Below, piece after piece: positions 15,364 to 64,000 of a stretch of 64,000 bases of DNA. The position numbers and the translations under genes are program-made. Source of the DNA: Photorhabdus asymbiotica (GTDB lineage: Bacteria > Pseudomonadota > Gammaproteobacteria > Enterobacterales > Enterobacteriaceae); the NCBI RefSeq assembly GCF_003634575.1, contig NZ_RBLJ01000004.1, forward strand, positions 682,001-746,000, read 5' to 3'. The notes beneath the pieces are model-generated. The model saw only the letters and a list, made by a program, of their open reading frames with translations. It was not told the DNA's origin and ran no database searches. Numbering within the stretch: position 1 is the first letter of the stretch; each line of letters starts with the position of its first letter.

Positions 15364-15383
15364 CCGCCGCATTTATGTGGCGG
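15364..15383 (+). terminator. Probable yeaY terminator
   Basis: CCGCC-GCAT-TT-ATGT-GGCGG hairpin between the convergent yeaY and GNAT genes. It has one wobble pair and a weak T tract, so it could act in either direction. Confidence 0.4.
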
Positions 15384-15399
15384 AATCATATTACTGTTT

Positions 15400-15918: not shown

Positions 15919-16135
15919 ATTTTATTAGTTTTGGTTTTTTAATAATGTATTGGAATAGATGAAAGCAATAAATGCTATTCTAAAAATGCTATCTTAAGCG
16001 AAAATGTATCGGTCAATGTGTAATCAATAGCTACCAAGTTAAATATTAACTATGGCAATAATATACTGATAATTAAAAATAATTTATAGACGACACAATT
16101 CCTTTGTTTTTGTGTATAAGGATTAACATGAAATT

Positions 16136-16151
16136 AGTGATGTGCATCTCA
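16136..16151 (+). promoter_or_regulatory. CRP-like site before fadD
   Basis: AGTGATGTGCATCTCA matches the CRP palindrome (TGTGAT-N4-ATCACA) at most informative positions. E. coli fadD is CRP-activated. Confidence 0.55.
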
Positions 16152-16173
16152 ACCTGAGCAATGTTTCTTTTTT

Positions 16174-16191
16174 AAACTGGTATGCTGAGTT
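16174..16191 (+). promoter_or_regulatory. FadR-like operator before fadD
   Basis: AAACTGGTATGCTGAGTT fits the FadR pattern CTGGTNNNANNNGTT. It sits about 80 bases before the start codon, as expected for a fatty-acid-responsive repressor site. Confidence 0.5.
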
Positions 16192-16269
16192 AATAATTTG
16201 TTAAAACAAGGCGTGCGTTATTTATTGGGCGAGTGATAACATAGCAATTAAAATTTCAGGAGTATTACC

Positions 16270-17958
16270 TTGGAGAAAGTCTGGCTAAAACATTATCCGG
16301 CAGATATCCCTGTGGAAATTGACCCGGATCGTTATGCATCATTGGTTGAAATGTTTGAAAATGCCGTAGCGCACTATGCAGATCAACCTGCGTATATAAA
16401 TATGGGTGAGGTTATGACCTTCCGTAAGTTGGAGGAGCGTAGCCGGGCGTTTGCTGCTTATTTGCAAAATGGTTTGGGATTAAGCAAAGGGGATCGTATT
16501 GCATTGATGATGCCAAACTTGTTGCAATACCCTGTTGCTTTGTTTGGTTCTTTGCGCGCAGGTTTGGTTGTCGTAAACGTAAATCCTTTGTATACGCCAC
16601 GCGAACTTGAACATCAGCTTAATGACAGCGGCGCTTCAGCCATTGTGATCGTTTCTAACTTTGCTCATACGCTGGAGAAGATCGTTTTTAATACCAGAGT
16701 TAAGCATGTTATTTTGACGCGTATGGGTGATCAGTTATCTCGTCCTAAAGGTACATTGGTTGATTTTGCTGTGAAATATATCAAACGGTTGGTACCGAAA
16801 TATCACCTGCCTGATGCTATTTCATTTCGTTGTGCGATACATAAAGGTTATCGCATGCAATATGTGAAACCGGATATTAACGGTGATGATTTGGCCTTCC
16901 TGCAATATACTGGTGGCACTACCGGCGTCGCTAAAGGGGCGATGCTGAGTCATCGTAATATGCTAGCAAATCTTGAGCAGGCAAAAGCGGTTTATTCGCC
17001 ATTACTGCGGGTGGGTCAGGAACTAATAGTTACTGCGCTACCGCTTTATCATATATTTGCGTTAATGGTGAACTGTTTGCTACTTATTTACGTGGGTGGA
17101 TGTAATCTTCTGATCACTAATCCGCGTGATATTACAGGGACAGCTAAGGAATTGAGTCGTTATCAGTTCACTTCAGTGACTGGTGTGAATACGTTGTTTA
17201 ACGCTTGGTTAAATAATGAAGAATTTAAGAAGCTTGATTTTTCCGCATTGCGTCTTGTTGTTGGTGGTGGTATGCCAGTTCAGAAAACAGTTGCTGAGAA
17301 GTGGGCTAAAGTGACGGGAAGGACTCTTCTTGAGGGATATGGTTTGACAGAGTGCTCACCATTGGTTTCCTGTAATCCTTATAACGTGAAAAATTACACT
17401 GGTAGTATAGGCTTTCCAGTGTCTTCAACGGACATCAAACTTACCGATGATGATGGTAATGAGGTACCAATAGGCCAGCAGGGAGAACTGTGGGTCCGCG
17501 GCCCACAGGTTATGGTGGGTTATTGGAATCGCCCTGATGCGACAGACGAAGTATTGAAAGATGGCTGGGTAGCAACGGGTGATATTGCGAATATCAATGA
17601 ACAAGGTTTTATTCATATCGTAGATCGTAAGAAAGATATGATTTTGGTTTCTGGTTTCAATGTGTATCCTAATGAAGTTGAAGATGTTGTATCAGCTCAC
17701 CCGAAAGTGCTAGAGTCAGCAGCAATAGGTGTACCAAGTGAAAGCTCCGGTGAAACCGTTAAAGTATTTGTGGTTCGGATAGATTCCAGTTTGACCGAGG
17801 ATGAACTTAAAACGCATTGTCGTCGTTATCTGACAGGTTATAAGGTACCTAAAATCATTGAGTTCCGGGATGAATTACCTAAATCTAATGTAGGTAAAAT
17901 TCTTCGAAGGGAACTGCGAGGTGAAGAGGAAAAAGTAAGGAATGCAGTTGTAGCCTGA
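16270..17958 (+). CDS. fadD: FadD acyl-CoA ligase; probable StlB (cinnamoyl-CoA ligase) of the stilbene pathway
   Basis: 562 residues closely following E. coli FadD along the whole length, including the TTG start (AGGAG upstream). AMP-binding signatures are [16 protein letters not shown] (about 214-229), [11 protein letters not shown] and the C-terminal lysine motif [12 protein letters not shown]. It activates fatty acids as acyl-CoA for beta-oxidation at the inner membrane. From memory, the gene at this chromosomal place in P. luminescens was named stlB for activating cinnamate in isopropylstilbene synthesis; stlCDE lie about 31 kb downstream in this window. A double role in fat breakdown and stilbene starter supply is therefore plausible. 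The order fadD-rnd matches E. coli. Confidence 0.93.
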
Positions 17959-38439: not shown

Positions 38440-39432
38440 TTACTGATAAGTTAATGTCATTGTCGCGGTCACATTTGCCTGCCCGGGGGTAATATTGCGA
38501 TCGGTTTGGAAATAGCGGGCATGTAAAGGAATAGAGAACTTCCTGCCTGAATAGCTGTTGCCGATATTGATTTGTGAATGGATAATTATGGGTTGATTGT
38601 TGTAAAGGATTTGCATACCGACACCAGAAGCTGTTATGTGATTATTATCCTGATCGAGTGCCCAAACATGATATAAATTATTCTTTGCTTTCTTTCCATC
38701 AAGCATTAATTGAATATTAACATCATCATCACAAGCTAAAATAACCTCAAAATCTTTTCCGCCTGCGGTACTATTAACACCAGAAAAATCGCTTTTCTTG
38801 ATATCACCCATAGGAACAACAATATTGGTATCTTTCAGCGAACAGCTCTTTGTAATAATCCGGGTATTTCCCAAGTGGTAGGTATGAACGACGTTATCAT
38901 TTATTCGAGCTTGAATTAACTGATCGTTTCTAACAAAACCAGAACCTGTCGTTGGTGCTATTTTTATCAGTTGAATTGTCAGATATCCCCATGTATTTCC
39001 ACAATACCAACGACTTGAATTGTCACAGCTTACAGGGTCATGAGCAATACGAGGTAACCAGTCTAAACCATAGCCGGGACCCCAGGTATTTATTCTTATA
39101 CCAACACCGGGAACACCAGATTCATAAATAGCGTCTTTGTTGTAGTCTGCACTTTTATAGGATGTATATCCCCATGATGTTTTAACGTTTTTATCGCAAT
39201 AAAAGATATTGCCTTTATTGGCTAATTCATCAGCACGATATTCATAAATGGTTGTGCCAATAGCGTGATCTCTTGGCACATATAAAGTGCCAAAAGACAG
39301 GTGAGTAATTTCCGGTTTAAATGCTTTGTCAAACTGGCAGTTAGCGGCAAAACTATAGGGACTGATTGCTAAACCAGTAAATAAATGAGCGATAATGAGT
39401 AACTGCTTAATTCTATTGTAAATATTGAGCAT
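38440..39432 (-). CDS. Fimbrial tip adhesin / minor pilin
   Basis: 330 residues: signal peptide, an N-terminal receptor-binding-like domain with several Cys (about 30-190), then a pilin domain (about 200-330) beginning after KSCSLKDTNIVVPMG and ending in the usual alternating hydrophobic strand (VTATMTLTYQ). The two-domain build is that of chaperone-usher tip adhesins. It is the last gene of the four-gene operon, 19 bases after the usher. Confidence 0.85.
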   Translation of the reverse strand: MLNIYNRIKQLLIIAHLFTGLAISPYSFAANCQFDKAFKPEITHLSFGTLYVPRDHAIGTTIYEYRADELANKGNIFYCDKNVKTSWGYTSYKSADYNKDAIYESGVPGVGIRINTWGPGYGLDWLPRIAHDPVSCDNSSRWYCGNTWGYLTIQLIKIAPTTGSGFVRNDQLIQARINDNVVHTYHLGNTRIITKSCSLKDTNIVVPMGDIKKSDFSGVNSTAGGKDFEVILACDDDVNIQLMLDGKKAKNNLYHVWALDQDNNHITASGVGMQILYNNQPIIIHSQINIGNSYSGRKFSIPLHARYFQTDRNITPGQANVTATMTLTYQ

Positions 39433-39451
39433 CGTATTTTCCTGAAAATAG

Positions 39452-42010
39452 TTATTTGCAGTGAGCTTCTATTATATAGATGCCAGATAAAGGTTTTTCT
39501 TCTGATAACTTGTAATCGACATTACATTCCTGAATATCCTGATAACCCCACTTAACCAATAATCGTCCACTATCGGGTAAACCCGTGAGGTAAACTTGTC
39601 CTTCATGACTGACAATCGCACTGTTTGTTTCATCAATTTCATGGTATTTTTCTAACGTGACAATTGCCCCAAAAGGAATAGGATTACCTTGATAATATAG
39701 GTTTATCAGAACCCTATGACCTATTCTGGTTTGGAAATTAGCTAAAACTAAAGCACCTTGAGTCGGAATAACCGTCTGGGCATTAACATCAATATCAACA
39801 TTATCGGCTAATGAATGGGTATCCAGTGCAATGCGGTTTTTTCGGTAGCTGCTAACATAAGGAATAATCGCGAGGCCGTTCCAATCGGTAGCAATACCGA
39901 CATTATTATGGATCTTTATTCCTTTAGCACCATCGGTCCGGACTAATGCCAAGGTATCACCTAAATGTTGTGAAAGAGTGATGCCATATGGGTGGGCAAC
40001 AATTCCGCCTTGAAGTCCGTAATTCAGTTGGCGAGAATGGCGGTCATAACTATAACCAGCACTAATCTGACTATAAGATCCTTTATATTCTGCATGAGCA
40101 TAACCGCCAACGCCAGTACCGTGATTTGCGTAACTCTGTTGCAAGCTATAAGTTAAATTATTGTCTTCAAGTGCCGTACCACTTAAACCTGTTTGGTGAG
40201 AAATATCCTTATTTTTATTTGTGTTCAGGTTATAGTAGGCCCAGTTATTTTTCAACCAGCGATCTAATGGAACTTGTATGCTAAATGAAAAAAGTTGCTC
40301 GTTTTTATTCGTATTGGGGAGTTGGTTATAAGTGTAATTAAGATTGTAATTAATGTTGTTATAACTGGTGCTATAACCGGCATTGATACTGCGCTCATAG
40401 CCATTTTGTTGCCAATAGTTTTGCTGAAAAGCAGATAGATATAAACTGCCCCAATTTCCCAGAGACTGATTAATATGCAATTGTAGCTTACTTCTCTTAT
40501 TGGTGCGATAACGCCAGTCACTATTATTAGAATTATCTATATCATTGGCTTCTTTAAAGTCATAAAAGCCACGTGTTGAATAACGATAACCTGCCAGAGT
40601 AAAATTAGTCCCTGTTAATGAAAGATCTTTTGCATATTGAAAACGGTAAGATTGCCCTTCGGCACTTGTATTTGATTGTAAATCAGTATTTGCGTGGGTT
40701 ATATCAAAGGAGAGAGAGCCTAATGTACCTAAATTATAGCCTGATCCTAAAGCCATTGATTGATAATCTTTTGATAAAATAGTACCGCCATAGATGGTGA
40801 TATTATTAGAAAGGCCATAGATTAATGTACTTTGGACAAAATTAGGTTCTCTTCCTCGATTATTTGATGATTGATATTGACCCAGTGCCATCGAATATTG
40901 AATCCGACCTTCCCGTAGCATGATGGGAACAGTCGAAAATGATTGAATAGATTGGCGCTCCTGACCATCTGCCTCTTTAATAATAACTTCCAGATTTCCG
41001 CTTGATGTGGTTGAAAAAAGGTCATTAATGACAAATGGACCAGGTGCGACATAAGTCTGATAAATGATATAGCCATTTTGCCTGATCGTAACTTGCGCAT
41101 GACTTTGAGCAATTCCGCGGATAGTAGGAGCAAACCCTTTTAAGCTGTCTGGTAACATATTATCGTCAGAAGTTAACTGTAGGCCACGAAATTGATTACC
41201 ATCGAAAATATGAGAGGATGTAAAGCTATCACCTAAGGTTAATTGTCCTTTCAATGAATGAATATCCCGTTGTAAATAGGTGTTAATACTTTTCCAACTC
41301 TTATTACGGCTGGTATAGGTGGAATAATTACGCAAGCGCCATGCTTGCCAATTAGCACCTGTTCGCAGATTCAGATAATTGGTTTGTTTAGAGCCAGATT
41401 TATTGTCTTGCCAACTGTTTGATCCACTATAACTGTAATTAATTAACAATGAAGTTAATCCTTGCTGCCATAGTTCAGGTGAAACATAACCTCTTGCCTG
41501 GTTGTTTAATGCCGCTTGTGGAATGCTGATATCCAGCCTTTGCTGACTAAAATTAAAGGTTGTATTTGCTGATGGGATATATTGGCCTAAATCAGACAGT
41601 TCTGTTTCTGGTGGTAAACTGACTAATTCTGGAAATGTATCAATTTTTACTCCCATGTCCTGTAATTGTTGAATTGTCAGTTTAGGGAGTAATTTATTGT
41701 TTATCATAACAAAGGTTACGTTTCTAGTATTGACCTTATCTTTGTTAAGATAAATATCTACCCAGTAAACACCAGGGGGGTAGTCATCTTGTGTGAAAAT
41801 AGAGAGATCAATATCTTCGGGTGAATCAGTACCTGTTTCTAAGGCATGAATGTTGAAATAATCTTCAGAATAAGCGAGAGTAGAACAAAAGAGTACTCCG
41901 ATTGTTATAAATAGCGGTAATAAGCGCCACGGGTATTCAATATGATATGGATTTTTATTAATTTTATGCCGTGAGTACTTTTCCATAATTAATTTTCTAA
42001 CATAGAACAC
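39452..42010 (-). CDS. Fimbrial outer-membrane usher
   Basis: 852 residues, or 844 from the MEKYS start at 41986; neither start has a strong ribosome site. Signal peptide, N-terminal chaperone-binding domain (FNIHALE...), a 24-strand pore with plug domain (GFAPTIRGIAQSHAQVTIRQNGYIIYQTYVAPGPF) and C-terminal domains ending with paired Cys (ECNVDY...AHCK) are all present. It exports and assembles the pilus subunits. Complete, with no frameshift. Confidence 0.95.
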   Translation of the reverse strand: MFYVRKLIMEKYSRHKINKNPYHIEYPWRLLPLFITIGVLFCSTLAYSEDYFNIHALETGTDSPEDIDLSIFTQDDYPPGVYWVDIYLNKDKVNTRNVTFVMINNKLLPKLTIQQLQDMGVKIDTFPELVSLPPETELSDLGQYIPSANTTFNFSQQRLDISIPQAALNNQARGYVSPELWQQGLTSLLINYSYSGSNSWQDNKSGSKQTNYLNLRTGANWQAWRLRNYSTYTSRNKSWKSINTYLQRDIHSLKGQLTLGDSFTSSHIFDGNQFRGLQLTSDDNMLPDSLKGFAPTIRGIAQSHAQVTIRQNGYIIYQTYVAPGPFVINDLFSTTSSGNLEVIIKEADGQERQSIQSFSTVPIMLREGRIQYSMALGQYQSSNNRGREPNFVQSTLIYGLSNNITIYGGTILSKDYQSMALGSGYNLGTLGSLSFDITHANTDLQSNTSAEGQSYRFQYAKDLSLTGTNFTLAGYRYSTRGFYDFKEANDIDNSNNSDWRYRTNKRSKLQLHINQSLGNWGSLYLSAFQQNYWQQNGYERSINAGYSTSYNNINYNLNYTYNQLPNTNKNEQLFSFSIQVPLDRWLKNNWAYYNLNTNKNKDISHQTGLSGTALEDNNLTYSLQQSYANHGTGVGGYAHAEYKGSYSQISAGYSYDRHSRQLNYGLQGGIVAHPYGITLSQHLGDTLALVRTDGAKGIKIHNNVGIATDWNGLAIIPYVSSYRKNRIALDTHSLADNVDIDVNAQTVIPTQGALVLANFQTRIGHRVLINLYYQGNPIPFGAIVTLEKYHEIDETNSAIVSHEGQVYLTGLPDSGRLLVKWGYQDIQECNVDYKLSEEKPLSGIYIIEAHCK

Positions 42011-42028
42011 ATTAATGTAACTTTTTTG

Positions 42029-42703
42029 TTAAATAATTGTTTTTTCTTCGGCAGTCACACCACCAAAATCATTAATCGCTTTCCAACTAACTTGTTTTAT
42101 GTTTTTTACCGGTAGGGACCAACTCAGTTGACTAAAAGGTTTAATCATTCCTGCTGGTTTTATTTCATGTTGATCAGCCTTTAAATATGAAAGTGAAATA
42201 AAGTAAGGGGTGGGATTTTCAGCAACTAATACATTATTTTCTGCTCGGAATTTGAGCTGCTTATAGGCGACACTGGATTTTTCTGCTAAATTTACAGGCC
42301 GGTAAAATAATTTAAACTTTGATTTAACTGTAATTTGTAATTGATTTTGATCTGATTTTACCGAGGCGGGAATAGACTTCACATTGAGCCAAAAAAGTGA
42401 CTCCCGATCGTCAGGCAGGTTAGTTCCTGTTTTCACAATGCGTACGATATTTTCATTACCGGCTGTGAGCTTAAAAATCGGTGGGGTAACAATAAAGGGC
42501 GTTTTGGTATTATCGTTTTCATCCTGAATCCAGGACTGGATCAGATAAGGTGCATCTTTTTCTGGGTTATGTATAGAAATGGAGGCTTCTTTTTTATCAC
42601 TGACATAGATAACGCGGGTTCCGCCAATGACGACGCCTGCGATAGCAAAATTTATGCTGATCATATATAGAAATATCATTGCCAATAAGCGTTGGTATTG
42701 CAC
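42029..42703 (-). CDS. Periplasmic fimbrial chaperone
   Basis: 224 residues: signal peptide, then the PapD-type two-domain chaperone with GTRVIYVSDKKEASISIHN (G1 region), FWLNVKSIPA and KLFYRPVNL (subunit-carboxylate pocket Arg/Lys residues), and a C-terminal domain ending KAINDFGGVTAEE. Donates its G1 strand to pilins and delivers them to the usher. Confidence 0.95.
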   Translation of the reverse strand: MQYQRLLAMIFLYMISINFAIAGVVIGGTRVIYVSDKKEASISIHNPEKDAPYLIQSWIQDENDNTKTPFIVTPPIFKLTAGNENIVRIVKTGTNLPDDRESLFWLNVKSIPASVKSDQNQLQITVKSKFKLFYRPVNLAEKSSVAYKQLKFRAENNVLVAENPTPYFISLSYLKADQHEIKPAGMIKPFSQLSWSLPVKNIKQVSWKAINDFGGVTAEEKTII

Positions 42704-42753
42704 GGTAAGTTCTCCGTTTTATCGTATTTTTATACGTTATTTTGTGGGATGAG

Positions 42754-42769
42754 TGGGCATCCGTGCCCA
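42754..42769 (-). terminator. Hairpin between major pilin and chaperone genes
   Basis: TGGGCA - TCCG - TGCCCA. Hairpins after the first gene commonly reduce downstream expression or protect the pilin mRNA; no T tract follows, so attenuation or processing is more likely than full termination. Confidence 0.4.
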
Positions 42770-42797
42770 TATTTCTTAGTTACTCAGTTTGGTTGTC

Positions 42798-43328
42798 TTA
42801 ATTATAAACAATAGTAAAGTTGGCAACTGCGTCACCAGAGCCAGGACTAATTGTTTGAGCTGTTGCAATATACTTGGCAATAAACTTCAATTCTGCCGTT
42901 TTTTGATCAGTAAACGCTTGGAATTTGGATGCCTTGATTAAAGGAATCAATGTTGAGCTATCTTCTTCATAAATGCCAATAGCAACACCATCAGCGACGG
43001 CTTGACCTTTATCGTTGGATAGGGCTAGAAGATTGCTATTTTTACCATCTGTTTGTCCATCAAATTTAACTTGTGCATTACTGTATTCTGGTGGGCAATC
43101 ACTCAGTTTAATGCTGAAAGGTGTTGCGGCAGCGGTGCTGTCTACACCATTAAATGCACTTGAGCTAATTGTGCCCATATTCACGTTTTGGTTTGCAGAA
43201 TTGGTATCGATTTTACAAGCATTAGCGATGATATTACCTGTAAAGTTGATTTTTCCATCAGCTGCATTTGCTACGGAAATAAATACAGAAGATGCAAGTA
43301 AGGATGAAATAATCAGTTTAGCTTTCAT
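42798..43328 (-). CDS. Major fimbrial subunit (type 1-like pilin)
   Basis: 176 residues: signal peptide ending SVANA, then mature pilin with GKINFTGNIIANACKID (first Cys and N-terminal extension), DCPPEYSNAQVKFDG (second Cys) and a C-terminal strand ending AVANFTIVYN with the penultimate Tyr. First gene of the operon, so probably the shaft subunit. Confidence 0.92.
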   Translation of the reverse strand: MKAKLIISSLLASSVFISVANAADGKINFTGNIIANACKIDTNSANQNVNMGTISSSAFNGVDSTAAATPFSIKLSDCPPEYSNAQVKFDGQTDGKNSNLLALSNDKGQAVADGVAIGIYEEDSSTLIPLIKASKFQAFTDQKTAELKFIAKYIATAQTISPGSGDAVANFTIVYN

Positions 43329-49208: not shown

Positions 49209-50153
49209 ATGAAACGTGTTCTGGTGGTGTCATATTCTCAAAGTGGTCAATTGAACGAGGTGATAAAAAACTTAATTGCACCTCTGCATGAATCGGATGA
49301 AATATACATTCGTGAAGTTATTGTGAAACCGATTCCAGAATTCCCATTTCCCTGGTCGTTTTCTGAATTTGTTGATGCTTTTCCAGAAACAGTGCAGTTG
49401 CATTCACCTGAAATAGCTCCTTTACATCTGGAAGACGAAGAACCTTTTGACTTAGTGATATTAGGCTATCAGGTTTGGTTTTCATCTCCATCTCCTCCAA
49501 TAGTCGCGTTCCTTAAGAGTAAAGAGGGAAAACGGCTACTTAATGGCAAACCGGTAGTAACGGTTGTTGCTTGCCGAAACCTGTGGTTGATGGCTCAAGA
49601 AACGGTCAAAAAACTCTTGCATGAAAATGGCGCGTATTTACGCGACAACGTGGCCTTTATTGATAAAGTGAATTTTTTTATCACATTGTTCACAACCCCT
49701 ATGTGGTTAATGACAGGAAAAAAACAACCGATTTCTAGTTTGCCGCCAGCAGGAGTGTCAAAGGAAGATATTCAAGGAGCTAAACGTTTTGGGGATGCGT
49801 TGCTAATAGCACTTAAAGAGGATAAAGAGAAAGTTGATGCCCCAATGTTGAAAGGCTTAGGGGCGGTGTCTGTCGACCAATCTTTGATTTTCGGTGAACA
49901 TGCTATACATCGGGGATTTGGATTTTGGTCCGGGTTTATTTACCGTGTAGGCAAGAGGGGAAAATGGGTAAGGCGTTCTTTATTGACTTTGTTTGTGATC
50001 TATTTGGTATTAATGGTGTTGGTTGTTTTGCCCATTTCAATGGTTATTCGCCGTTTACTTACAGTATTGCTTAAAAAACGTCTTAATGAATTACAAAAAT
50101 ACTATGAACAACCATCTGGTTCTGCCCGCTATGATAATAAAGGAGATAGATAA
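49209..50153 (+). CDS. stlC: StlC/DarA-type flavodoxin-like aromatase of stilbene synthesis
   Basis: 314 residues. The N-terminal part is a flavodoxin-like domain (KRVLVVSYSQSGQLNEVIKNL with the FMN phosphate loop SYSQSGQ; LVILGYQVWFSSPSPPIVAFL; VVTVVACRNLW). The C-terminal part has one strong transmembrane helix (about 258-280) and a basic tail. This is the family annotated as dialkylresorcinol condensing enzyme DarA, proposed to oxidise or aromatise the ring intermediate. In Photorhabdus its homologue is part of stlCDE, making isopropylstilbene from cinnamoyl-CoA and a branched beta-ketoacyl-ACP. First gene of the set, five bases before stlD. Confidence 0.85.
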   Translation: MKRVLVVSYSQSGQLNEVIKNLIAPLHESDEIYIREVIVKPIPEFPFPWSFSEFVDAFPETVQLHSPEIAPLHLEDEEPFDLVILGYQVWFSSPSPPIVAFLKSKEGKRLLNGKPVVTVVACRNLWLMAQETVKKLLHENGAYLRDNVAFIDKVNFFITLFTTPMWLMTGKKQPISSLPPAGVSKEDIQGAKRFGDALLIALKEDKEKVDAPMLKGLGAVSVDQSLIFGEHAIHRGFGFWSGFIYRVGKRGKWVRRSLLTLFVIYLVLMVLVVLPISMVIRRLLTVLLKKRLNELQKYYEQPSGSARYDNKGDR

Positions 50154-50157
50154 GTAA

Positions 50158-51306
50158 ATGAGTAATAACGTTTATATCACTAAAGTTTCCGCTTTTATGC
50201 CGGGAAACCCAATAGATAATGATACAATGGAATCTGTCCTTGGTTTTGTTAATAACAAACCATCAAGATCTCGTCATATAGTACTGCGTAATAATGGTAT
50301 CAAGTATCGCCATTATGCACTGGACCCGGAAACGGGTGAGGCAACCTACTCAAGTGCCCAATTAGCGGCTGAAGCAGTAAAAGGTTTGGTTGATGAACAC
50401 TTTTCTTTAGATGATATGCAAAGTCTGGCAGCAGGTTCTGCTATCCCAGATCAGATCATACCGGGTCATGCCGTTATGGTTCATGGTGAACTGAAGAATG
50501 AACCTTGTGAAATTGTTTCAACTTCAGGCTCTTGTCTTGTGGGCATGACAGCGATGAAATATGCTTATTTGTCTGTTCTCTCGGGAACGACAAGTAATGC
50601 GGTGGCCGCAGCATCGGAAATAAGTTCATCTGTACTGCATGCGCGTAACTTCCAAAATGAAAGTGAAACTCGGGTTGCAGAATTGGAACTGCGTCCTGAA
50701 ATTGCTTTTGAGAAAGATTTTCTGCGTTGGATGCTTTCTGATGGCGCTGGTGCTGTTTTGCTTGAAAATAAACCACGGGCTGATGGTATTTCGTTACGAA
50801 TTGATTGGATAGACACGTACTCTTTTGCAAATGAGCTAGATACATGTATGTATGCTGGTGCAGAAAAATTAGCGGATGGCAGTTTAAAAGGTTGGGCACA
50901 AATGAATCCGGCTGATTGGCTTGCCTATTCTGTTTTCTGTATCAAACAAGATGTTAGACACTTAAATGAGCGGGTTGTTAAATATACGCTTAGTGAACCT
51001 TTGAGAAGAAGTGTAGAGAAGCGTAATTTATCAGCAGATTCCATTGATTGGTTCTTACCTCATATATCATCTGAATATTTCCGCATGAAAATGTCAGCAG
51101 GTCTTGATGATATTAATTTCAGTATTGATCAGGACCGTTGGTTTACTAACTTAACGACTAAAGGGAATACTGGATCGGTTTCTATTTATATCATGCTGGA
51201 TGAACTTATTAATTCGGGTAAACTGAAAAAAGATCAGCGTCTTTTATGTTATATCCCTGAAAGTGCCCGATTCTCCGGGGCGTTCATGCACCTAACTGTT
51301 GTGTAA
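50158..51306 (+). CDS. stlD: StlD/DarB-type ketosynthase (KAS III-like) forming the stilbene ring
   Basis: 382 residues of the thiolase fold, KAS III-like. The active-site Cys126 lies in [16 protein letters not shown], the His in [10 protein letters not shown] (about 300) and the Asn in [14 protein letters not shown] (about 340), completing the Cys-His-Asn triad. DarB/StlD enzymes condense an aromatic or polyene thioester with a beta-ketoacyl thioester and cyclise it to a cyclohexanedione. Starts five bases after stlC with AAAGGAGATAG overlapping. Two ERIC copies follow before stlE. Confidence 0.9.
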
Positions 51307-56217: not shown

Positions 56218-56239
56218 TTTCTTATCATTAATAGCTTAT

Positions 56240-56272
56240 AAACCCCACGTAAATATTTTGTGGGGTTTTAAT
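56240..56272 (+). terminator. pntAB terminator
   Basis: AAACCCCAC - GTAAATATTTT region - GTGGGGTTT followed by TTAATTT, 23 bases after the pntB stop; a typical rho-independent terminator. Confidence 0.85.
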
Positions 56273-56443
56273 TTAGCAAAATAATAAATTTCCACATGCA
56301 TGGTCGAAAACACCATAGTTATTACCCAATATTTCATAAGAAAGTAAAATATATGTCACATAAATGATGACAGCATGTGGAAAATATTTTTATTTCATCA
56401 TAATTTAATGAATGGCAATAGAAGTACTTGGATGATAATAAGT

Positions 56444-56570
56444 TATACCCAATAGATTTCAAGATGCATCGCGACGGCAGGGGAGCGAATCCCCGGGAGC
56501 ATAGATAACTCTGTGACCGGGGTGAGTGAGTGTAGCCAACAAAGAGGCAACTTGAAAGATAACAGGTATA
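56444..56570 (+). repeat. ERIC element (127 bp)
   Basis: Full-length copy between pntB and the biosynthetic cluster. Confidence 0.93.
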
Positions 56571-56752
56571 AAGGAATTAACCAATATATTCAGTCAGAGC
56601 GCATTTAGGCTTATTTATGGCTTATATATTAAATTCGGATTTTTAATAATATTGGTATTAATTTGGTTTGTTTATTTTGGTTTTAGGTTGCCGATAACCT
56701 AATGGCGGTAGCGTACTTTTTTATATAATTCCCCAATGTCATATATACCCAA

Positions 56753-56879
56753 TATACCCTATGGATTTCAAGATGCATCGCGACGGCAAGGGAGCGAATC
56801 CCCGGGAGCATAGCGAACTATGTGACCGTGGTGAGTGAGTGCAGCCAACAAAGAGGCAACTTGAAAGATGACGGGTATA
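56753..56879 (+). repeat. ERIC element (127 bp) next to an ERIC end fragment
   Basis: Full-length copy 39 bases before the inositol phosphate synthase gene. It is immediately preceded by TATACCCAA (56745-56753), an ERIC left-end fragment, as if inserted into an older element whose remainder was lost. Confidence 0.9.
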
Positions 56880-56918
56880 TCTATCTAGCAAAACAATGAG
56901 TGAAGCAAAGAGGTTAGT

Positions 56919-58013
56919 GTGAAAAGCCAAAAGAAGATACGGGTAGCTATTGCTGGAGTAGGAAATTGTGCTTCAAGTTTAGTTCAATTAGTCATTCAGA
57001 GCTATGGAAAGCGTGATAAAGTCAATGGGGTAATGAACAAACTAATTGGTGGTTATGCTGTCGAAGATATAGAATTTGTGGCGGCATTTGACGTGAATAA
57101 ATTGAAAATTGGTAAGGACTTAGCTGAGGCTATTGTAACATACCCGAATATGACAACAGTTTATCAGGAAGTTCCTCAGATGAATGTTAAGGTTTCTCAA
57201 GGTGTTTTCCGTGATGGAATAGGAGAAAACTTACTTGGGAAGATTGAGATTGAACCAGATTGTAAGACACGTACATACGAGGACATTTCTAAAGTTCTGG
57301 TCGAATCTAAAACAGAAGTTCTTATTAATTATTTGCCTGTGGGCTCTGCCAAAGACACAGAAGCATATGTAAAAGCCGCGTTAGATGCTAAATGTGCATT
57401 TGTAAATTGCAACCCTGAATTAGTGGCTACGAGGGAAGAATGGGCTAAACAATTCGAGGAAGCAGGAGTACCGTTATTGGGCGACGATATTAAGAGTCAA
57501 CTTGGTGCAACAATGTTACATCGTTCAATATGTCAAACATTAGTTGATCGGGGAGCTGTAATTACTAAAACATATCAGCTAAATGTTGGTGGTAATACTG
57601 ATTTTGAAAACATGGTAGATCGTACCAGATCAAAAACTAAAAAGTTCACAAAAACGGATGCAATTAGAGATGTGCTAGGTGATAACGTGGAAATCAATGT
57701 TGGTCCATCAGATCACATCTCCATGTTAAATGATCGAAAAGTTGCATATATAAGAATTGAAGGTACCTCTTGTTTAGGAATGAACTTCTCTGTCGAAACA
57801 AGATTGGATGTTGAGGATAGCCCAAATTCTGCTGGAGTGGCGATTGACGCAATTCGAGCTGCGGGATTTGCGCGGGACAAAAAAATTTATGGTGCAGTTT
57901 TGGAGCCGTCTGCATTCTTATTTAAGTATCCTCCGAAGAAATATCATGAAAATGAAATTTTAAATACAATGGAAAAATGGTTACGTTCAGAACTCATTCA
58001 TGAGGCTAATTAA
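56919..58013 (+). CDS. myo-Inositol-1-phosphate synthase (actinobacterial/archaeal-size type)
   Basis: 364 residues, GTG start with AAAGAGGTT upstream. It follows the short MIPS type known from Mycobacterium Ino1: NAD-binding IRVAIAGVGNCASSLVQLV, FVAAFDVNKLKIGKDLAEAI, LINYLPVGS, GDDIKSQLGATMLHR (catalytic Asp/Lys region), TYQLNVGGNTDFENM, VGPSDHISMLNDRKVAYIRIEG and the late Lys in SAFLFKYPPKK. The known reaction converts glucose-6-phosphate to 1D-myo-inositol-3-phosphate (L-1-phosphate) with bound NAD. Gammaproteobacteria rarely carry it; in secondary metabolism it feeds aminocyclitol or carbocyclic pathways. First gene of the accessory operon. Confidence 0.93.
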   Translation: MKSQKKIRVAIAGVGNCASSLVQLVIQSYGKRDKVNGVMNKLIGGYAVEDIEFVAAFDVNKLKIGKDLAEAIVTYPNMTTVYQEVPQMNVKVSQGVFRDGIGENLLGKIEIEPDCKTRTYEDISKVLVESKTEVLINYLPVGSAKDTEAYVKAALDAKCAFVNCNPELVATREEWAKQFEEAGVPLLGDDIKSQLGATMLHRSICQTLVDRGAVITKTYQLNVGGNTDFENMVDRTRSKTKKFTKTDAIRDVLGDNVEINVGPSDHISMLNDRKVAYIRIEGTSCLGMNFSVETRLDVEDSPNSAGVAIDAIRAAGFARDKKIYGAVLEPSAFLFKYPPKKYHENEILNTMEKWLRSELIHEAN

Positions 58014-58170
58014 ATTAGTGAGGGATTAACTAGAGTCCAAGTTATTTAGTAAAATCGGATTGGAGTTTGCTTATATTTTAGAGACACCGAATAATTTGTT
58101 ACAGCTATAATAAATAGATTGCCTCTGAAAATATCATTAACTTTATTGATTTACGTAATTAAGATTGGAT

Positions 58171-58902
58171 ATGAAAATAGTTATTGTTAATGACGACGGA
58201 TACGAAGAACCATTTCATCATGATTTTGTCGACCATTTAAAAAAACTTGCTTTTGATGTGATCTCGGTTACACCTAGTAAAAATATGTCTGGGTTTGCTT
58301 CAGCTATTAATATACGAAATTATGTACAGTTTACAGAATATGAATCACAAATGTATAAAGTTGATGGTACATCTGTTGATTGTGCCCTAATTGGGATTGG
58401 ACTAGCTAATTATTTTTGGGGTAAACCTGATTTACTTGTGAGTGGAATCAACAGGGGAATGAACTACGGACCCTGCGTTATTTACAGCGGTACCTATGCC
58501 GCAGCACGCGAATCATCACGGCAAGGAATTCTTGCGGTATCTTTTTCTGCAAATGAAACGAATTCAAAGCTTAACCGAAGAATATTAGATAGTGCAACTT
58601 TGATTTTAGAAAAAATACTATCTGATAAATTTGACAATAAGAATGCTGTATTAAATGTAAATTTTAATTCTGTCTTGAGTGATAAACTTCTCATTGAAAA
58701 TGAAGTAATAGATAAATCTTATAATCTTTTTAACGTGCCTAATATAAAAAGTGTTGATAAAGGTATAGTAAAATATAATTTTAATAAAGAATTCGAACGA
58801 CTTGATTTCTTTACTATGATTGGATTAATTCATAATTTAAATAATTTTTCAATAAGTAGTTATGATTATAGAGAATTCAAAGACTGGTTAAATAAATTGT
58901 AA
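58171..58902 (+). CDS. SurE-like phosphatase in the biosynthetic cluster
   Basis: 243 residues from the ATG at 58171. All SurE metal ligands are kept: Asp8/Asp9 in VNDDGY, Ser in SKNMSGFAS and Asn in LVSGINRGMNYG; VIYSGTYAAARESSRQGILAVSFS and GTSVDCALIGI are further core motifs. The C-terminal third is diverged, Asn/Lys-rich and shorter in its swapped tail than housekeeping SurE. SurE enzymes remove phosphate from nucleotides and other phosphate esters; here the likely substrate is the cyclitol phosphate or a later phosphorylated intermediate. It lies 157 bases after the inositol phosphate synthase and is AT-rich like its neighbours. A housekeeping surE elsewhere (beside pcm) would be expected. 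Confidence 0.85.
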   Translation: MKIVIVNDDGYEEPFHHDFVDHLKKLAFDVISVTPSKNMSGFASAINIRNYVQFTEYESQMYKVDGTSVDCALIGIGLANYFWGKPDLLVSGINRGMNYGPCVIYSGTYAAARESSRQGILAVSFSANETNSKLNRRILDSATLILEKILSDKFDNKNAVLNVNFNSVLSDKLLIENEVIDKSYNLFNVPNIKSVDKGIVKYNFNKEFERLDFFTMIGLIHNLNNFSISSYDYREFKDWLNKL

Positions 58903-58923
58903 TTTTATAGTCATAGCCATGCT

Positions 58924-58944
58924 ACTTGAAAGATAACGGGTATA
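58924..58944 (+). repeat. ERIC right-end fragment (21 bp)
   Basis: ACTTGAAAGATAACGGGTAT plus A is exactly the right end of the ERIC elements in this window, left in the gap between the SurE-like and carbamoyltransferase genes. The rest of the element is gone. Confidence 0.75.
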
Positions 58945-58970
58945 GAAATATATTGAGGTTATAGATCTAT

Positions 58971-60941
58971 ATGTTACCGGATGGTTTTTATTTATCTGCA
59001 TATATTCATATTGATAGTTTATCCAATGAGATAAGATGGTGGCATAGGCATGACCAAAACATTTCTCTATGGGAATTGGAAGGTGAAAGTGTCAAACTTG
59101 TTGAATATTGGGAGTTAGAACGGCTTACAGGCCAGAAACAGCACTATCAATCCTTCGCTTCCGTAAACGCTGCCAAAGAATTTATTTCGAAGCTATTAGC
59201 AACTTATAATCTTTGTCTCGATGATATAATTGAAGTAATCGGTTGTCCGGGGCTTGGTAATTGGACTTATGAAAATAATTTCATTAAAAATATTCCTTAC
59301 CATACTTTATGTCATCTATTTTCTGGGTTATTTTTAGATTCAGATAAGTTTAATAATGAAAATATAGTTGCTTTGGTTTTAGATGGCGGTCCTGATCGTG
59401 TGGTAGATAATGAAATTCCATTTGAGTATGAATATTTAGCTTGTTATTTTGAAAAAGGGGAAGTTAAAGGTGTAATGCCGTTAAGATTTTCTCCGGGACG
59501 ACTTTGGTTCAATGCCCGGGAAAAGTTTGGTCTAAGAGAGGGATCATTAATGGCCTTGCAGACTGCGATGGATGTTAGGTCGACTATCAAAGTACCAGAA
59601 ATATTATTTGAAGGCTCTCATGATGTTTATGAATCGGCTATATCTTTTTTAAACGAATCTTGGGACAAAATATTTGCATCAGATAACATTACAGTTGCAC
59701 GAATAAATGGTGATCTCTTTAAGGATTTCAGTGAGCAAGAAGTGAAGATCAGTATGTGTATCAAACTTCTTGACGAGGTTTGTACCATGATGATGAATTC
59801 AATTATCAGAAAATTATTACAAACTGCTGCTATTGATCCACGTAAATCGATTCTCTCAATCACGGGTGGTTTTGCACTAAATTGTCCAACAAATAGTTAC
59901 TTAATGAAGAAATATAACTTCAAGGAATTTTGTTCTCCTCCCTGTGTTAATGATTCTGGTATTAGTTTTGGTGCGGCACTAATGGAATTTTATAGCCGTA
60001 GGAAAAAGATCCGTTTTTCTCTAAATAGTTCTTATCATGGTCCTATTTTGAATGTAACTCAGGCAAGGAATAGTGAATTATTTAAAAGTTTTGTTGTGGA
60101 TGAATCAAATTTAGATTTTTCACAAGTAGTCAGTGATATTAAATCTGGGCCTATTGTTTGGCTACAAGGTAGATCTGAAATTGGACCTAGAGCACTTGGT
60201 CATCGAAGTATTTTGGTAGACCCTCGTTTTATGCATGGAAAATATATTTTAAATGATATTAAGCAACGAGAATGGTGGAGACCTGTTGCGCCGATCGTTT
60301 TGCAGGAAGATATTTGTGATTGGTTTGATGATGCATATCCATCTCCATATATGTTGCACGCATTTAAGGTTAAAGAAGAAAAGCGTGATTTAATCCCGGT
60401 GATCAAGCATTTGAATGATACTGCTAGAGTGCAAACAATTAGTGAACAACAGAACCATCTGCTTTATCAAGTATTGCATATGTTTAAGCAAGCAACAGGA
60501 ATCCCAATGGTTGGAAATACGTCCCTTAATGATAAAGGAGAGCCGATAATTGAAACCGTTGAGCAAGCTATTAACTTTGCGCTCAGAAAAGGTATTAACG
60601 TGCTATATATGGATGGCACACGCATTAAACTCGATCTCAATCGACATTATACTGAGAGCCGTCCGTTAGCTAGAGAGCATTGTGAGATATTGGGGGCAGC
60701 AAATAGCCATAAGATTGCTCAGCGCTTCTATGATGCAGGTGCTTCTAGAGAAATGATCTCGTTGCTTTGCCGAATGCCATTTTTGAGAAGACATTTTAAT
60801 TTGAATACTGTTGAAGGTGTTGACAGATTTATCCAATTTGGGATGTTTGCCGAACGATCAAGGAGAAAATACATAGCCACAAGTGCGCATACAGAATATT
60901 TGAGACTTTTCAATCAATGGAAATCGAAATTAGAGGATTGA
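58971..60941 (+). CDS. NodU/CmcH/TobZ-family O-carbamoyltransferase
   Basis: 656 residues. The N-terminal Kae1-like half has His111/His115 (HTLCH) for metal binding, VLDGGPDRV and GGFALNCPTNSYL (about 300) with VNDSGISFGAAL. The C-terminal half has the YrdC-like carbamoyl-adenylate site (IVWLQGRSEIGPRALGHRSILVDPR, about 395-420; REWWRPVAPIVLQ; NTSLNDKGEPIIET). These enzymes use carbamoyl phosphate and ATP to carbamoylate hydroxyl groups of antibiotics and Nod factors (tobramycin, cephamycin, novobiocin). An extra C-terminal extension of about 90 residues follows the usual end. It lies three bases before the next gene, so it is in an operon with it. Confidence 0.93.
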   Translation: MLPDGFYLSAYIHIDSLSNEIRWWHRHDQNISLWELEGESVKLVEYWELERLTGQKQHYQSFASVNAAKEFISKLLATYNLCLDDIIEVIGCPGLGNWTYENNFIKNIPYHTLCHLFSGLFLDSDKFNNENIVALVLDGGPDRVVDNEIPFEYEYLACYFEKGEVKGVMPLRFSPGRLWFNAREKFGLREGSLMALQTAMDVRSTIKVPEILFEGSHDVYESAISFLNESWDKIFASDNITVARINGDLFKDFSEQEVKISMCIKLLDEVCTMMMNSIIRKLLQTAAIDPRKSILSITGGFALNCPTNSYLMKKYNFKEFCSPPCVNDSGISFGAALMEFYSRRKKIRFSLNSSYHGPILNVTQARNSELFKSFVVDESNLDFSQVVSDIKSGPIVWLQGRSEIGPRALGHRSILVDPRFMHGKYILNDIKQREWWRPVAPIVLQEDICDWFDDAYPSPYMLHAFKVKEEKRDLIPVIKHLNDTARVQTISEQQNHLLYQVLHMFKQATGIPMVGNTSLNDKGEPIIETVEQAINFALRKGINVLYMDGTRIKLDLNRHYTESRPLAREHCEILGAANSHKIAQRFYDAGASREMISLLCRMPFLRRHFNLNTVEGVDRFIQFGMFAERSRRKYIATSAHTEYLRLFNQWKSKLED

Positions 60942-60944
60942 TTA

Positions 60945-62144
60945 ATGGAAATTTTTTTTGAACAAAAAAATTCTAATCTACAATTCGAACATGTAGAACG
61001 AAAAGGAGCAGGTCATCCAGATACAATGTGTGATGCTATTGCGGAAAAAGCATCAGCAATGTATGCAAATTATTGTCTTAATAAATTTGGCAAGGTGGCT
61101 CACCACTGGTTTGATAAAACAATGTTAATTGGTGGGGAGTCTAATATTTGTTTTGGTGTCGGTGAGGTCATTAAACCTTATATATTAATATTTGCTGGTA
61201 AGGTGAGTTATTGTGTCGGCAAACACCAGATACCAGTTGACAGTATTTTAAAAAGCGCCGTCAAAGATGTGCTGGATAATTGCTTGACGGGTTTCGATAT
61301 TGAGCGACATGTTGTTATTGAAAATAAGTTAGTTGATTATCAAGGCGCTGGCCGTTCAGAATCAAGATACCGGCCTGACAGTGTAGATCAATTGCCATCT
61401 TTGGAAGATTATTATAAATTTACCTCTAATGACTGTAATTTAGTTTCAGGCTATGCCCCATTGACTACATTAGAAAATATGGTGCTGAAAATTGAGAGGT
61501 TTATCAATTCAGTTGATTTTAAATCTATTCATCCTTATACCGGTTGGGATATTAAGGTATTTGGCACCAGAGAAAATGAGCAGTACTCGATCATTGTTAA
61601 TATGCCTATTTTAGGTAAGTTTTGTAGCTCGGTTGCTGACTATAAGGTCAAGATTGAATTGGCAAGATTGTCAGTTGAATCGTTCATAGCAGATATTTTT
61701 GGAAGCATCGATCTCTGTCTGGAATTAAATCCACAAGATCGTCGAGGAAAACCCTATATTACGGCTATTGGGAGTGCTGCGGATACGGGTGATGTGGGTG
61801 TGGTTGGCCGAGGTAATCGGTTAAACGGACTTATTACACCGATGAGACCGATGAGTATTGAAGCCCCTGCGGGTAAGAACCCTATGGATCATACCGGTAA
61901 AATTTATGGCTTATTTGCCAATCAACTAGCGCAATATTTATATGAAAAGTATAACAAATACTTTGAAATACATATTTATACCCTGAAAGAGTCCTATTTG
62001 GTTGATCCTGATAAAGTTTTAATATCGAGTGATTATCTGAATGGAGATGAGATGATAGAAGTTGAGAAAATTGTTCGAGAAAAATTGGGGAAAATCAATA
62101 CCGTTATCTCCGATTTGATTTCGGAAAAGGTTCAATTATGGTAA
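60945..62144 (+). CDS. Archaeal-type S-adenosylmethionine synthetase (PF01941-like)
   Basis: 399 residues. It does not follow bacterial MetK but the archaeal AdoMet synthetase family: [21 protein letters not shown] (about 18-38), [86 protein letters not shown] (about 277-320) and a late SYLVDPDKV. It makes SAM from ATP and methionine. Embedded between the carbamoyltransferase and aminotransferase with gaps of only a few bases, it probably supplies SAM to this pathway rather than to the cell. Its end overlaps the aminotransferase start by seven bases. Confidence 0.9.
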
Positions 62145-63373
62145 GTAATATCTTTAAATCATTGCGAACTATTAGAGACGATTTTTCAAATATGAACCCA
62201 TGGCCTATTATATCTGAACCTGAAAAAGAGGAGATATTGAGATGCTTGACTTCAGGTGAGATTTCTTATTATGCATCTGGAAAAAAGATTCATGAATTAG
62301 AAAATAAATTTAAACATTTTCTAGGCCGTAAATACGCAGTGGCTTTGAATTCAGGGACTTCTGCATTATATCTGGCCTTTTTGTGTTGTGGACTTTCAAG
62401 AGAAGATGAAATACTGGTTCAAAGTTATACATTCCCTGCGACTGTTATGCCGTTACTTCATATCAATTGTACACCGTTATTAGTCGATAATGCGCCAGGT
62501 AAATCATATCCTACTGTAGCTGAATTTCAGGAAAGACTAAGTTTGAAAACTAAAGCGATTGTGATTACTCATATGGACGGTATACCCGCGCAAATGGATG
62601 AGATAAAGGCTTTTGCGGAGAAATATAATCTGATAATAATTGAAGATTGCGCGCAGGCATTAGGTGCTTCTAGAGATGGATCTTTGGTGGGTACCATGGG
62701 AGATATTTCAATATTTTCTATTACAGATAAGAAGATCGTCGTAGGTGGTGAGGGCGGTATTTTACTTACCGATGATGATACTATTTATGAGAAAGTTATT
62801 TTACTTGGCTATCTTCAGAAAAGATCATTTGAAGATGTGGCTTCGCCTGAACTTTCAAAATTCTGTTACACCGGGTTAGGTTTTAATTTTAGGATGCATC
62901 CATTTGCTGCTGCTATGGCGTGTGTACAATTTGATTCTTTTAAGAAGCACTTAGAGAACAGAAGAAAATTTGAAAAATGGTTGGATGAGCTGTTGCAGCC
63001 TTTTAACTTTGTTTATCCTATAGAGTCAGGAAAGAATATAGTTAAGTCCCAATACAGCATAAAATATTTGATCGATAGTAGTAGATGTGACATTAACGAG
63101 TTGGTTAAAGTGGGAAAACGGTACGGTCTGCCGATTGAAAAGACGACTACGATTCCATTACACCGTGCTGCGATCTTTTCTAATGAAAGCTTGGCGTTTG
63201 TGCAAGAACATGGTTTTAATGAACGGTTTTCAAGAAATTCTGATTTTTCTTTTCCTAATAGTGAGGAATATGTCAATAATTCTATTAGGTTTCCCGCTTT
63301 ATATACCAACGACCCTAAATATAGAGATTGGTTTAGTATGAATATTCGATCTTTATTTGGAGGATTCATGTAA
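62138..63373 (+). CDS. DegT/DnrJ/EryC1 (StsC-like) PLP-dependent aminotransferase
   Basis: 411 residues. Fold-type I sugar/cyclitol aminotransferase: ALNSGTSALYLAFLCCG, VQSYTFPATVMPLLHINCTPLLVD, IIEDCAQALGAS (Asp170 to the PLP ring nitrogen) and FSITDKKIVVGGEGGILLT, in which Lys199 aligns with the Schiff-base lysine. The GEGG motif is that of the L-glutamine:scyllo-inosose/2-deoxy-scyllo-inosose group (StsC, BtrR), whereas most nucleotide-sugar members have GDGG. Together with the inositol phosphate synthase this points to amination of a keto-cyclitol. The start overlaps the upstream gene; ATG at 62192 is a shorter alternative. Confidence 0.9.
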   Translation: MVSNIFKSLRTIRDDFSNMNPWPIISEPEKEEILRCLTSGEISYYASGKKIHELENKFKHFLGRKYAVALNSGTSALYLAFLCCGLSREDEILVQSYTFPATVMPLLHINCTPLLVDNAPGKSYPTVAEFQERLSLKTKAIVITHMDGIPAQMDEIKAFAEKYNLIIIEDCAQALGASRDGSLVGTMGDISIFSITDKKIVVGGEGGILLTDDDTIYEKVILLGYLQKRSFEDVASPELSKFCYTGLGFNFRMHPFAAAMACVQFDSFKKHLENRRKFEKWLDELLQPFNFVYPIESGKNIVKSQYSIKYLIDSSRCDINELVKVGKRYGLPIEKTTTIPLHRAAIFSNESLAFVQEHGFNERFSRNSDFSFPNSEEYVNNSIRFPALYTNDPKYRDWFSMNIRSLFGGFM

Positions 63374-63376
63374 AAA

Positions 63377-64000
63377 ATGAATTTATATAAGTATATTCGA
63401 CATTTCTTAACTGATTATTCTTTTCAGGATCTGACCGTTGGTGAGATTGAATTGTCGAGCATAAACAGATGTTGGAAAATAAGCCATGTAGAAGGCTGTT
63501 GGTTATTAAAACAATGTAATAACGATTATACGGACGATTGGTTAGCGCTTGTAAATAAACTTATCCCAGAACTTAAGCGTTATGGATTGGAAAATTTACT
63601 TGAATGTAGTGAATTAGGATATTTTATCGGAGGTGACGGAGTTTATTGGACTTTGTCAAAATATTTAGAGAATGCGACCTCACCAAGTTTAAATTGTGCT
63701 GAAACTGTTCAGAAGGCCACTACCTATTTGAAGAATATGCAAGCTATTAATATCAGCAACTATTCTGATTATTTATCGCTTGAAATAGGAAGAAATGATC
63801 TGCGCACTGTGTTACAAAATGGGCAAAACCTAATTCATTTCTATAGTTCATTGGATGATGAATATTTTATTCGGTCTTCTGTTTACAAGTGTGAGTTTAT
63901 TTCCGCCTTAAAAAATATCGATTTTGCAGGAACTTTGGCAGCATATAACAGTCTTGATTTATTCATTTCGCATGGTGAATATCAAATCCAGAATATACTT
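63377..64000 (+). CDS. Phosphotransferase of the APH/choline-kinase fold (3' end outside window)
   Basis: 208 residues up to the window edge with no stop. ATG lies three bases after the aminotransferase stop. The N-lobe is weakly conserved (ELSSINRCWKISHVEGCWLLKQC, with a Lys at the expected beta-3 position). The end reads ISHGEYQIQNIL, the APH catalytic loop HG[D]xxxxN with Glu in place of the catalytic Asp. It may phosphorylate a cyclitol intermediate (as StrN does in streptomycin synthesis), inactivate the product for self-protection, or be a divergent pseudo-kinase. The DFG-like part lies beyond the window. Confidence 0.7.
   Translation, partial: MNLYKYIRHFLTDYSFQDLTVGEIELSSINRCWKISHVEGCWLLKQCNNDYTDDWLALVNKLIPELKRYGLENLLECSELGYFIGGDGVYWTLSKYLENATSPSLNCAETVQKATTYLKNMQAINISNYSDYLSLEIGRNDLRTVLQNGQNLIHFYSSLDDEYFIRSSVYKCEFISALKNIDFAGTLAAYNSLDLFISHGEYQIQNIL

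Follow-up and report, generated by a model that had tools for sequence, protein, structure and literature searches.

This locus raises the question of what a methionine adenosyltransferase (MAT) is doing in an operon that seems built for a cyclitol. The window, that is, the whole 64,000-nt stretch analysed here, comes from Photorhabdus asymbiotica (contig NZ_RBLJ01000004.1, positions 682,001 to 746,000 of the forward strand; C4:682001-746000 of the source genome), and towards its right end begins a group of 11 same-strand genes, from 56919 to about 68306, that is packed as an operon and extends beyond the window. This operon appears to have been horizontally acquired, its product is likely of the aminocyclitol type, and its MAT is remodelled at residues that contact methionine in archaeal MATs. 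We tentatively propose, as possible rather than probable, that the acquired operon makes a carbamoylated aminocyclitol-type molecule and that the MAT-like enzyme would act on a cyclitol triphosphate; it would therefore be a committed pathway step and not a supply of S-adenosylmethionine (SAM). The parts of this proposal read from the sequence are the packed operon, the island, the conserved gene set, the catalytic motifs, the remodelled MAT and its linkage to a nucleoside diphosphate kinase (NDK)-like gene.

Operon layout and gene families

The predicted genes are the following, with those beyond the window given in window numbering:

56919..58013, + strand: inositol-1-phosphate synthase (MIPS)-family cyclase, a cyclitol phosphate synthase (PF01658, 5.4e-27)
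58165..58902, + strand: SurE-family phosphatase/nucleotidase (PF01975, 1.2e-34)
58971..60941, + strand: NodU/CmcH/TobZ-type O-carbamoyltransferase, CarbT (PF16861, 2.5e-55; PF02543, 1.8e-07)
60945..62144, + strand: remodelled archaeal-type MAT, HHW type (PF01941; NF003362, 610.8 bits)
62138..63373, + strand: DegT-family pyridoxal phosphate-dependent aminotransferase (PF01041, 2.7e-65)
63377..64351, + strand, cut by the window edge at 64000: APH-fold small-molecule kinase (homologue profile)
64344-65351, + strand, beyond the window: HprK-like protein (homologue profile)
65348-65836, + strand, beyond the window: Nudix protein (Pfam/NCBIfam)
65876-66646, + strand, beyond the window: SDR dehydrogenase (Pfam/NCBIfam)
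66677-67216, + strand, beyond the window: adenylate-kinase-like P-loop protein (homologue profile)
67296-68306, + strand, beyond the window: NDK-like protein (homologue profile)

Intergenic gaps are between -8 and +151 bp throughout, and the 11 genes therefore likely form a single operon. Scans with consensus promoters and terminators gave no more matches in the operon than in shuffled sequence. Chance grouping can be set aside, since a Parageobacillus plasmid carries 10 of these genes as one group. The open reading frame (ORF) list places the six in-window genes, all on the + strand, where the first-pass annotation of this DNA had placed and named them, and their families are backed by Pfam and NCBIfam or, for the APH-fold kinase, by a homologue profile. 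That annotation had also predicted a dehydrogenase to the right, which we identify as the SDR gene, and had considered that the genes might be separate housekeeping paralogues, which their packing as one operon speaks against.

The MAT scores above its NCBIfam cut-off, and several of MIPS, SurE, CarbT, DegT, Nudix and SDR score under the equivalog cut-offs of theirs. Homologue profiles were needed for the APH, HprK-like, P-loop and NDK-like proteins because single-sequence scans gave nothing or a sub-threshold match (Pfam only for the P-loop protein; neither a Pfam nor an NCBIfam match for APH). Against the PDB, the APH profile, built from 19 homologues, matched YtaA (E 1.5e-13) and amicoumacin kinase (1.4e-8); that of HprK-like matched HPr kinase (E 0.0019) in the P-loop region only, and that of the P-loop protein matched many P-loop proteins, adenylate and shikimate kinases being among them.

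A remodelled methionine adenosyltransferase

Relatives of the MAT were collected with a protein search, which found plasmids of Parageobacillus and Paraburkholderia, and with a scan of contigs with a MAT fragment (84,980 species by database description; 54 pattern matches and 30 loci), and 33 loci were compared. The window MAT scores 610.8 bits against NF003362, whose cut-off is 481. In TkMAT, the methionine carboxylate is contacted by His62, Asn64 and Asn161, while Asp144 and Leu145 of the flexible loop touch the adenine amino group and the methionine side chain (PMC3853416). The equivalents of His33, His62, Asn161, Asp201, Tyr271 and Asp283 are kept in all 33 cluster MATs, including the catalytic His. 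The carboxylate contacts are nonetheless incomplete: the Asn64 equivalent is Trp in 33/33 cluster MATs and Asn in 7/7 reference MATs, a count that is partly biased, Trp being included in one of the two scan patterns. The Trp is also present in all ten loci found with the NDK-like protein as bait (see below), and it is therefore not only a search artefact. Other changes lie outside the scan patterns (Ser to Asn165, Glu to Asp280, Val to Thr317 and Phe to Tyr142). In an alignment made without a ligand structure, the loop with Asp144-Leu145 is replaced by one of the QGxGRxxSRYxP type, and in the sequences displayed the Asp144 position is taken, depending on the alignment, by Arg or Gln. Overall, the cluster and reference MATs differ in seven diverged columns and share 65 residue columns. 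The cluster enzymes thus resemble TkMAT, SsMAT and MjMAT in family, catalytic His, adenosine-side residues and the GRGNR and GKNP..H.GK motifs, to which we ascribe a role with the triphosphate, and depart from them at Asn64, Asn165, Asp280, Thr317 and the flexible loop. The AlphaFold2 model of the window MAT has a pLDDT of 83.9; parts of residues 279-305, a stretch holding active-site residues, are poor.

Among the 11 operon genes, Pfam, NCBIfam and homologue profiles revealed no SAM-consuming enzyme, nor was a methyltransferase or radical-SAM protein among the 25 commonest of the 94 Pfam families found in 121 neighbour proteins of the related loci; the remaining 69 families match at most two proteins each. 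The first-pass annotation had proposed a dedicated SAM supply, with a methyl- or aminopropyltransferase to the right. Given the remodelled active site and the lack of a recognised consumer, neither idea is supported. The MAT could still make ordinary SAM for methyltransferases encoded elsewhere, its odd residues being neutral drift, as its score above the methionine adenosyltransferase cut-off and the retention of the His33, Tyr271, Asp201 and Asp283 equivalents in 33/33 would allow. We consider this unlikely, because the Trp and the loop motif are common to cluster MATs of Firmicutes, Actinobacteria and Proteobacteria, the Trp accompanies the NDK-like bait in 10/10 cases, and no SAM user was recognised in the operon or the commonest neighbour families.

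Alternatively, the enzyme might combine ATP with another nucleophile, such as the amine or a thioether of an aminocyclitol, to give a 5'-deoxyadenosyl-cyclitol. The ATP-side residues are kept and the lost Asn64 is a methionine-carboxylate binder in TkMAT (PMC3853416). However, two other carboxylate contacts, His62 and Asn161, stay, Asp144, the contact to the adenine amino group, is also lost (in an alignment-dependent comparison), and the NDK-like and P-loop kinases would be left without a role, all of which make this route fairly improbable.

Related clusters and linkage to an NDK-like gene

Besides the MAT used as bait (33), the 33 loci contain genes for NDK-like (29), SDR (27), MIPS (25), APH (22), HprK-like (20), P-loop (19), Nudix (12), DegT (7), SurE (3) and CarbT (1) proteins. 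These counts are set by the length of the stretches covered and are lower bounds, because in the complete chromosome of L031 the missing genes sit outside the stretch and near the MAT: a group of MIPS, APH, HprK, P-loop, DegT, Nudix and SDR lies about 10-17 kb upstream, with MIPS about 14 kb away. Likewise, eight actinobacterial loci lack MIPS within the stretch covered, and each of their genomes has one of 49-52% identity. Nine core families (MIPS, MAT, DegT, APH, HprK-like, Nudix, SDR, P-loop and NDK-like) occur together in the window, in the Parageobacillus copy and in five Streptomyces loci (L020, L023, L025, L038 and L046), and Bacillus L022 and L024 hold seven of them. Recurring neighbours are PHP and HAD phosphatases, carrier proteins, ABC exporters, NTP_transf_5 and aminoacyl-tRNA synthetase-like proteins. 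Judged by gene content, the related loci mark a biosynthetic cluster family that spans Proteobacteria, Firmicutes and Actinobacteria. The window copy belongs to it as a compact and predicted carbamoylating form; CarbT was found only there among the stretches covered. Within the open-licence literature of PMC we found no product for the family and no identical cluster with a known product; reports outside it are possible.

The plasmid of Parageobacillus caldoxylosilyticus ER4B (NZ_CP040554.1, typed as conjugative) shares with the window MIPS, SurE, MAT, DegT, APH, HprK, Nudix, SDR, P-loop and NDK-like genes, that is, 10/11. It differs in having no carbamoyltransferase, in its additional MFS, PqqD, HAD and nucleotidyltransferase-like genes, in a DegT split into two ORFs, in a short P-loop ORF (141 aa) and in an IS256-family transposase gene between the P-loop and NDK-like genes; the DegT split and the transposase insertion are found at L014:11621-12870 and 15382-16548.

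The NDK-like protein is probably a remote, longer relative of NDKs. Its PF00334 score is 17.9 bits, under the gathering score of 27; its profile matches nucleoside diphosphate kinases in the PDB (E 4.6e-6) with N-x-x-H-x-S aligned, and it retains this motif and Lys-Pro-Glu, which we take to be the phosphohistidine site and the KPxx lysine of NDKs. The predicted fold thus comes from profile and motif; the structural model has a pLDDT of 92.1. The gene starts at most 150 bp after the end of the MAT gene in 26 of the 29 loci that have it. When the NDK-like protein was used as bait in 394 Streptomycetaceae genomes, 17 matched: the ten full-length matches, four of them already known, all adjoin a MAT with HHWFDK, and the other seven are weak partial matches (60 bits or less) that were not counted as NDK-like and have no MAT at their loci.

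Separately, two Streptomyces plasmids (L017:7956-14117 and L051:6950-13117) carry a different MAT cluster, with the ordinary Asn at the 64 site, together with a carbamoyltransferase, a sugar isomerase, a Gfo/Idh oxidoreductase and a Nudix gene.

Predicted ring formation, amination and carbamoylation

The cyclase matches PF01658 and the PDB entries 1gr0 (M. tuberculosis INO1) and 6k96 (a five-membered-cyclitol-phosphate synthase), and scores 340 bits for TIGR03450, under the cut-off of 638. We take 6k96 to be Ari2 of the aristeromycin pathway. The evidence is compatible with either an inositol or a five-membered carbocycle. The product might be an aristeromycin-like carbocycle, with a cyclopentane phosphate formed by MIPS and a carbocyclic nucleotide by the kinases; a CH2-O-triphosphate would fit MAT chemistry. 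In a quick FastTree tree with branch support unexamined, 21/25 cluster MIPS are nearer to 6k96 than to INO1, and those of L018, L019 and L028 are placed apart from the 6k96-side group. Yet the cluster enzymes are about as identical to 6k96 (34-46%) as to INO1 (38-46%), the window MIPS is 41% identical to 6k96 and 46% to INO1, and no base-attaching enzyme or other nucleobase chemistry was seen in the operon, so that an aristeromycin-like product seems quite unlikely.

The amination and carbamoylation read from this operon in the first-pass annotation, as part of a cyclitol-type pathway, are supported by the motifs: DegT has Lys before GEGG, accompanied by the SDR as dehydrogenase, and CarbT keeps HxxxH, NDSG and GRxExGPRALG. 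HxxxH and the Asp are the metal motifs of O-carbamoyltransferases. CarbT matches TobZ, GdmN and others in the PDB and resembles TobZ/CmcH/NodU in its C-terminal domain (PF16861) and motifs, and differs from them in a divergent N-terminus. Its closest plasmid relatives (36-39%) are Streptomyces genes; three of these have no annotated cyclitol genes nearby and lie near genes for a cupin and DinB, a peptidase, a methyltransferase or YcaO.

Streptomycin- and spectinomycin-type pathways share with the operon a MIPS or inositol start, a dehydrogenase with a DegT aminotransferase and an APH-fold kinase. Unlike them, the operon has no recognised amidinotransferase or glycosyltransferase, and its MAT, NDK-like, HprK-like, P-loop kinase, Nudix and SurE proteins are not known to us from those pathways.

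Glycan pathways also employ DegT aminotransferases and NodU-type carbamoyltransferases, and the best NCBIfam matches of DegT are LegC and PseC, all under cut-off, as would be expected if these were surface polysaccharide or other cell-envelope genes. Nevertheless, no glycosyltransferase, flippase or polymerase was recognised in the 11 genes, and related clusters sit with carrier proteins, exporters and phosphatases. A flank of polysaccharide genes had been considered as well; extending the sequence revealed none between the operon and the nickel transporter gene nicO (PF03824) and urease genes (by eye) to its right, where there is also a small ribbon-helix-helix-like gene on the opposite strand (by eye). 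We regard an envelope role as highly improbable.

A proposed pathway and its difficulties

From these families we infer a possible product structure, ring size, MAT substrate, step order and triphosphate ladder. MIPS would cyclise a hexose phosphate, SurE would remove the phosphate, and the ring would be oxidised by SDR and aminated by DegT. After re-phosphorylation by the APH and HprK-like kinases, the P-loop and then the NDK-like protein might raise the monophosphate to di- and triphosphate, like the AMP-ADP-ATP ladder. In the reaction of the MAT-like enzyme, methionine or a similar nucleophile would then displace the triphosphate of the cyclitol instead of that of ATP; CarbT would add the O-carbamoyl group and Nudix could clear side products. 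A further and somewhat unlikely step is that the operon parallels on a cyclitol the route from nucleoside to SAM, the triphosphate giving a sulfonium or, after cleavage, a methylthio cyclitol, perhaps a SAM mimic, with the MAT/NDK-like pair as a portable C-S bond module spread among phyla on plasmids and islands. Mannostatin is a methylthio aminocyclopentitol, and a product like it was considered.

Several observations speak against a cyclitol triphosphate as substrate. The adenosine-holding Tyr271, Asp201 and Asp283 of archaeal MATs are kept, consistent with ATP, and the Trp count carries the search bias mentioned above. The window MIPS is slightly closer to the true inositol-phosphate synthase, and on a ring without an exocyclic CH2 the displacement would be at a secondary carbon, where it is more difficult than at the C5' position of ATP. 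Four loci that keep MIPS, MAT, HprK and APH (L018, L019, L021 and L047) have neither an NDK-like nor a P-loop gene, and a search without a positive control found no NDK-like gene in these four genomes; there, the ladder would either depend on a cellular NDK or be unneeded. In three copies, those of the window, Parageobacillus and Paraburkholderia, the NDK-like gene does not adjoin the MAT. Finally, an overlapping ERIC-like repeat supplies about 20 codons at the 3' end of the P-loop gene in the window copy.

Insertion and its boundaries

Acquisition of the operon is suggested by comparison with other genomes of the genus, which defines an insertion containing three copies of a repeat that we assume to be ERIC-like:

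56230 to about 68272 (56230..64000 inside the window), no strand: ~12.0 kb insertion after pntB (blastn with genus loci)
56444..56573, no strand: ERIC-like repeat at the left edge of the insertion (many genomic copies, mostly 93-98% identical)
56752..56880, no strand: ERIC-like repeat just 5' of the operon (copies elsewhere in the genome)
67133-67278 (L009:14133-14278), beyond the window: third ERIC-like repeat, over the 3' end of the P-loop gene (sequence overlap)

By blastn, homology to other genus loci ends at 56220-56229 (five loci) and restarts at 68271-68311 (six loci). In 11 genus genomes compared for pntB and nicO, the twelfth (G002) being left out, the site is empty in 10/10 of the others, with 0.4-1.8 kb between both genes and 12.75 kb here. 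This MAT is encoded only in the source genome among 12 of the genus, and any match to it occurs in 3/394 genomes of the order, source included; the other two are 35% identical, and one of them (L013) retains the ordinary Asn. GC content per kb is 30-39% within the insertion and 42-47% outside, except for one kb (L009:17001-18000) of 38%. A plasmid DNA search returned six records, all matched at best over short stretches (90 bases or fewer) of the repeat region. By eye, a methyltransferase-like ORF (L010:3523-4062) ends in a peptide resembling the repeat-derived tail of the P-loop protein.

Other features nearby

Three further features were noted by eye. A flavodoxin-like oxidoreductase gene followed by a ketosynthase-III-like gene (49209-51306) resembles what we take to be part of a dialkylresorcinol-type pathway, and a chaperone-usher fimbrial operon occupies 38440-43328 on the minus strand. 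At L010:11768-15622 there is a non-ribosomal peptide synthetase-like protein that combines an adenylation domain with an oxidoreductase-like insertion, a carrier and a thioesterase.

Significance

Taken by its gene content, the operon would be a variant of the aminocyclitol kind, and its MAT/NDK-like module could prove to be more than that. If the MAT-like enzyme does act on a cyclitol triphosphate, this would put SAM-synthetase chemistry to a new use, and the HHW motif with an NDK-like neighbour would be a genome-mining handle for sulfur-containing metabolites.

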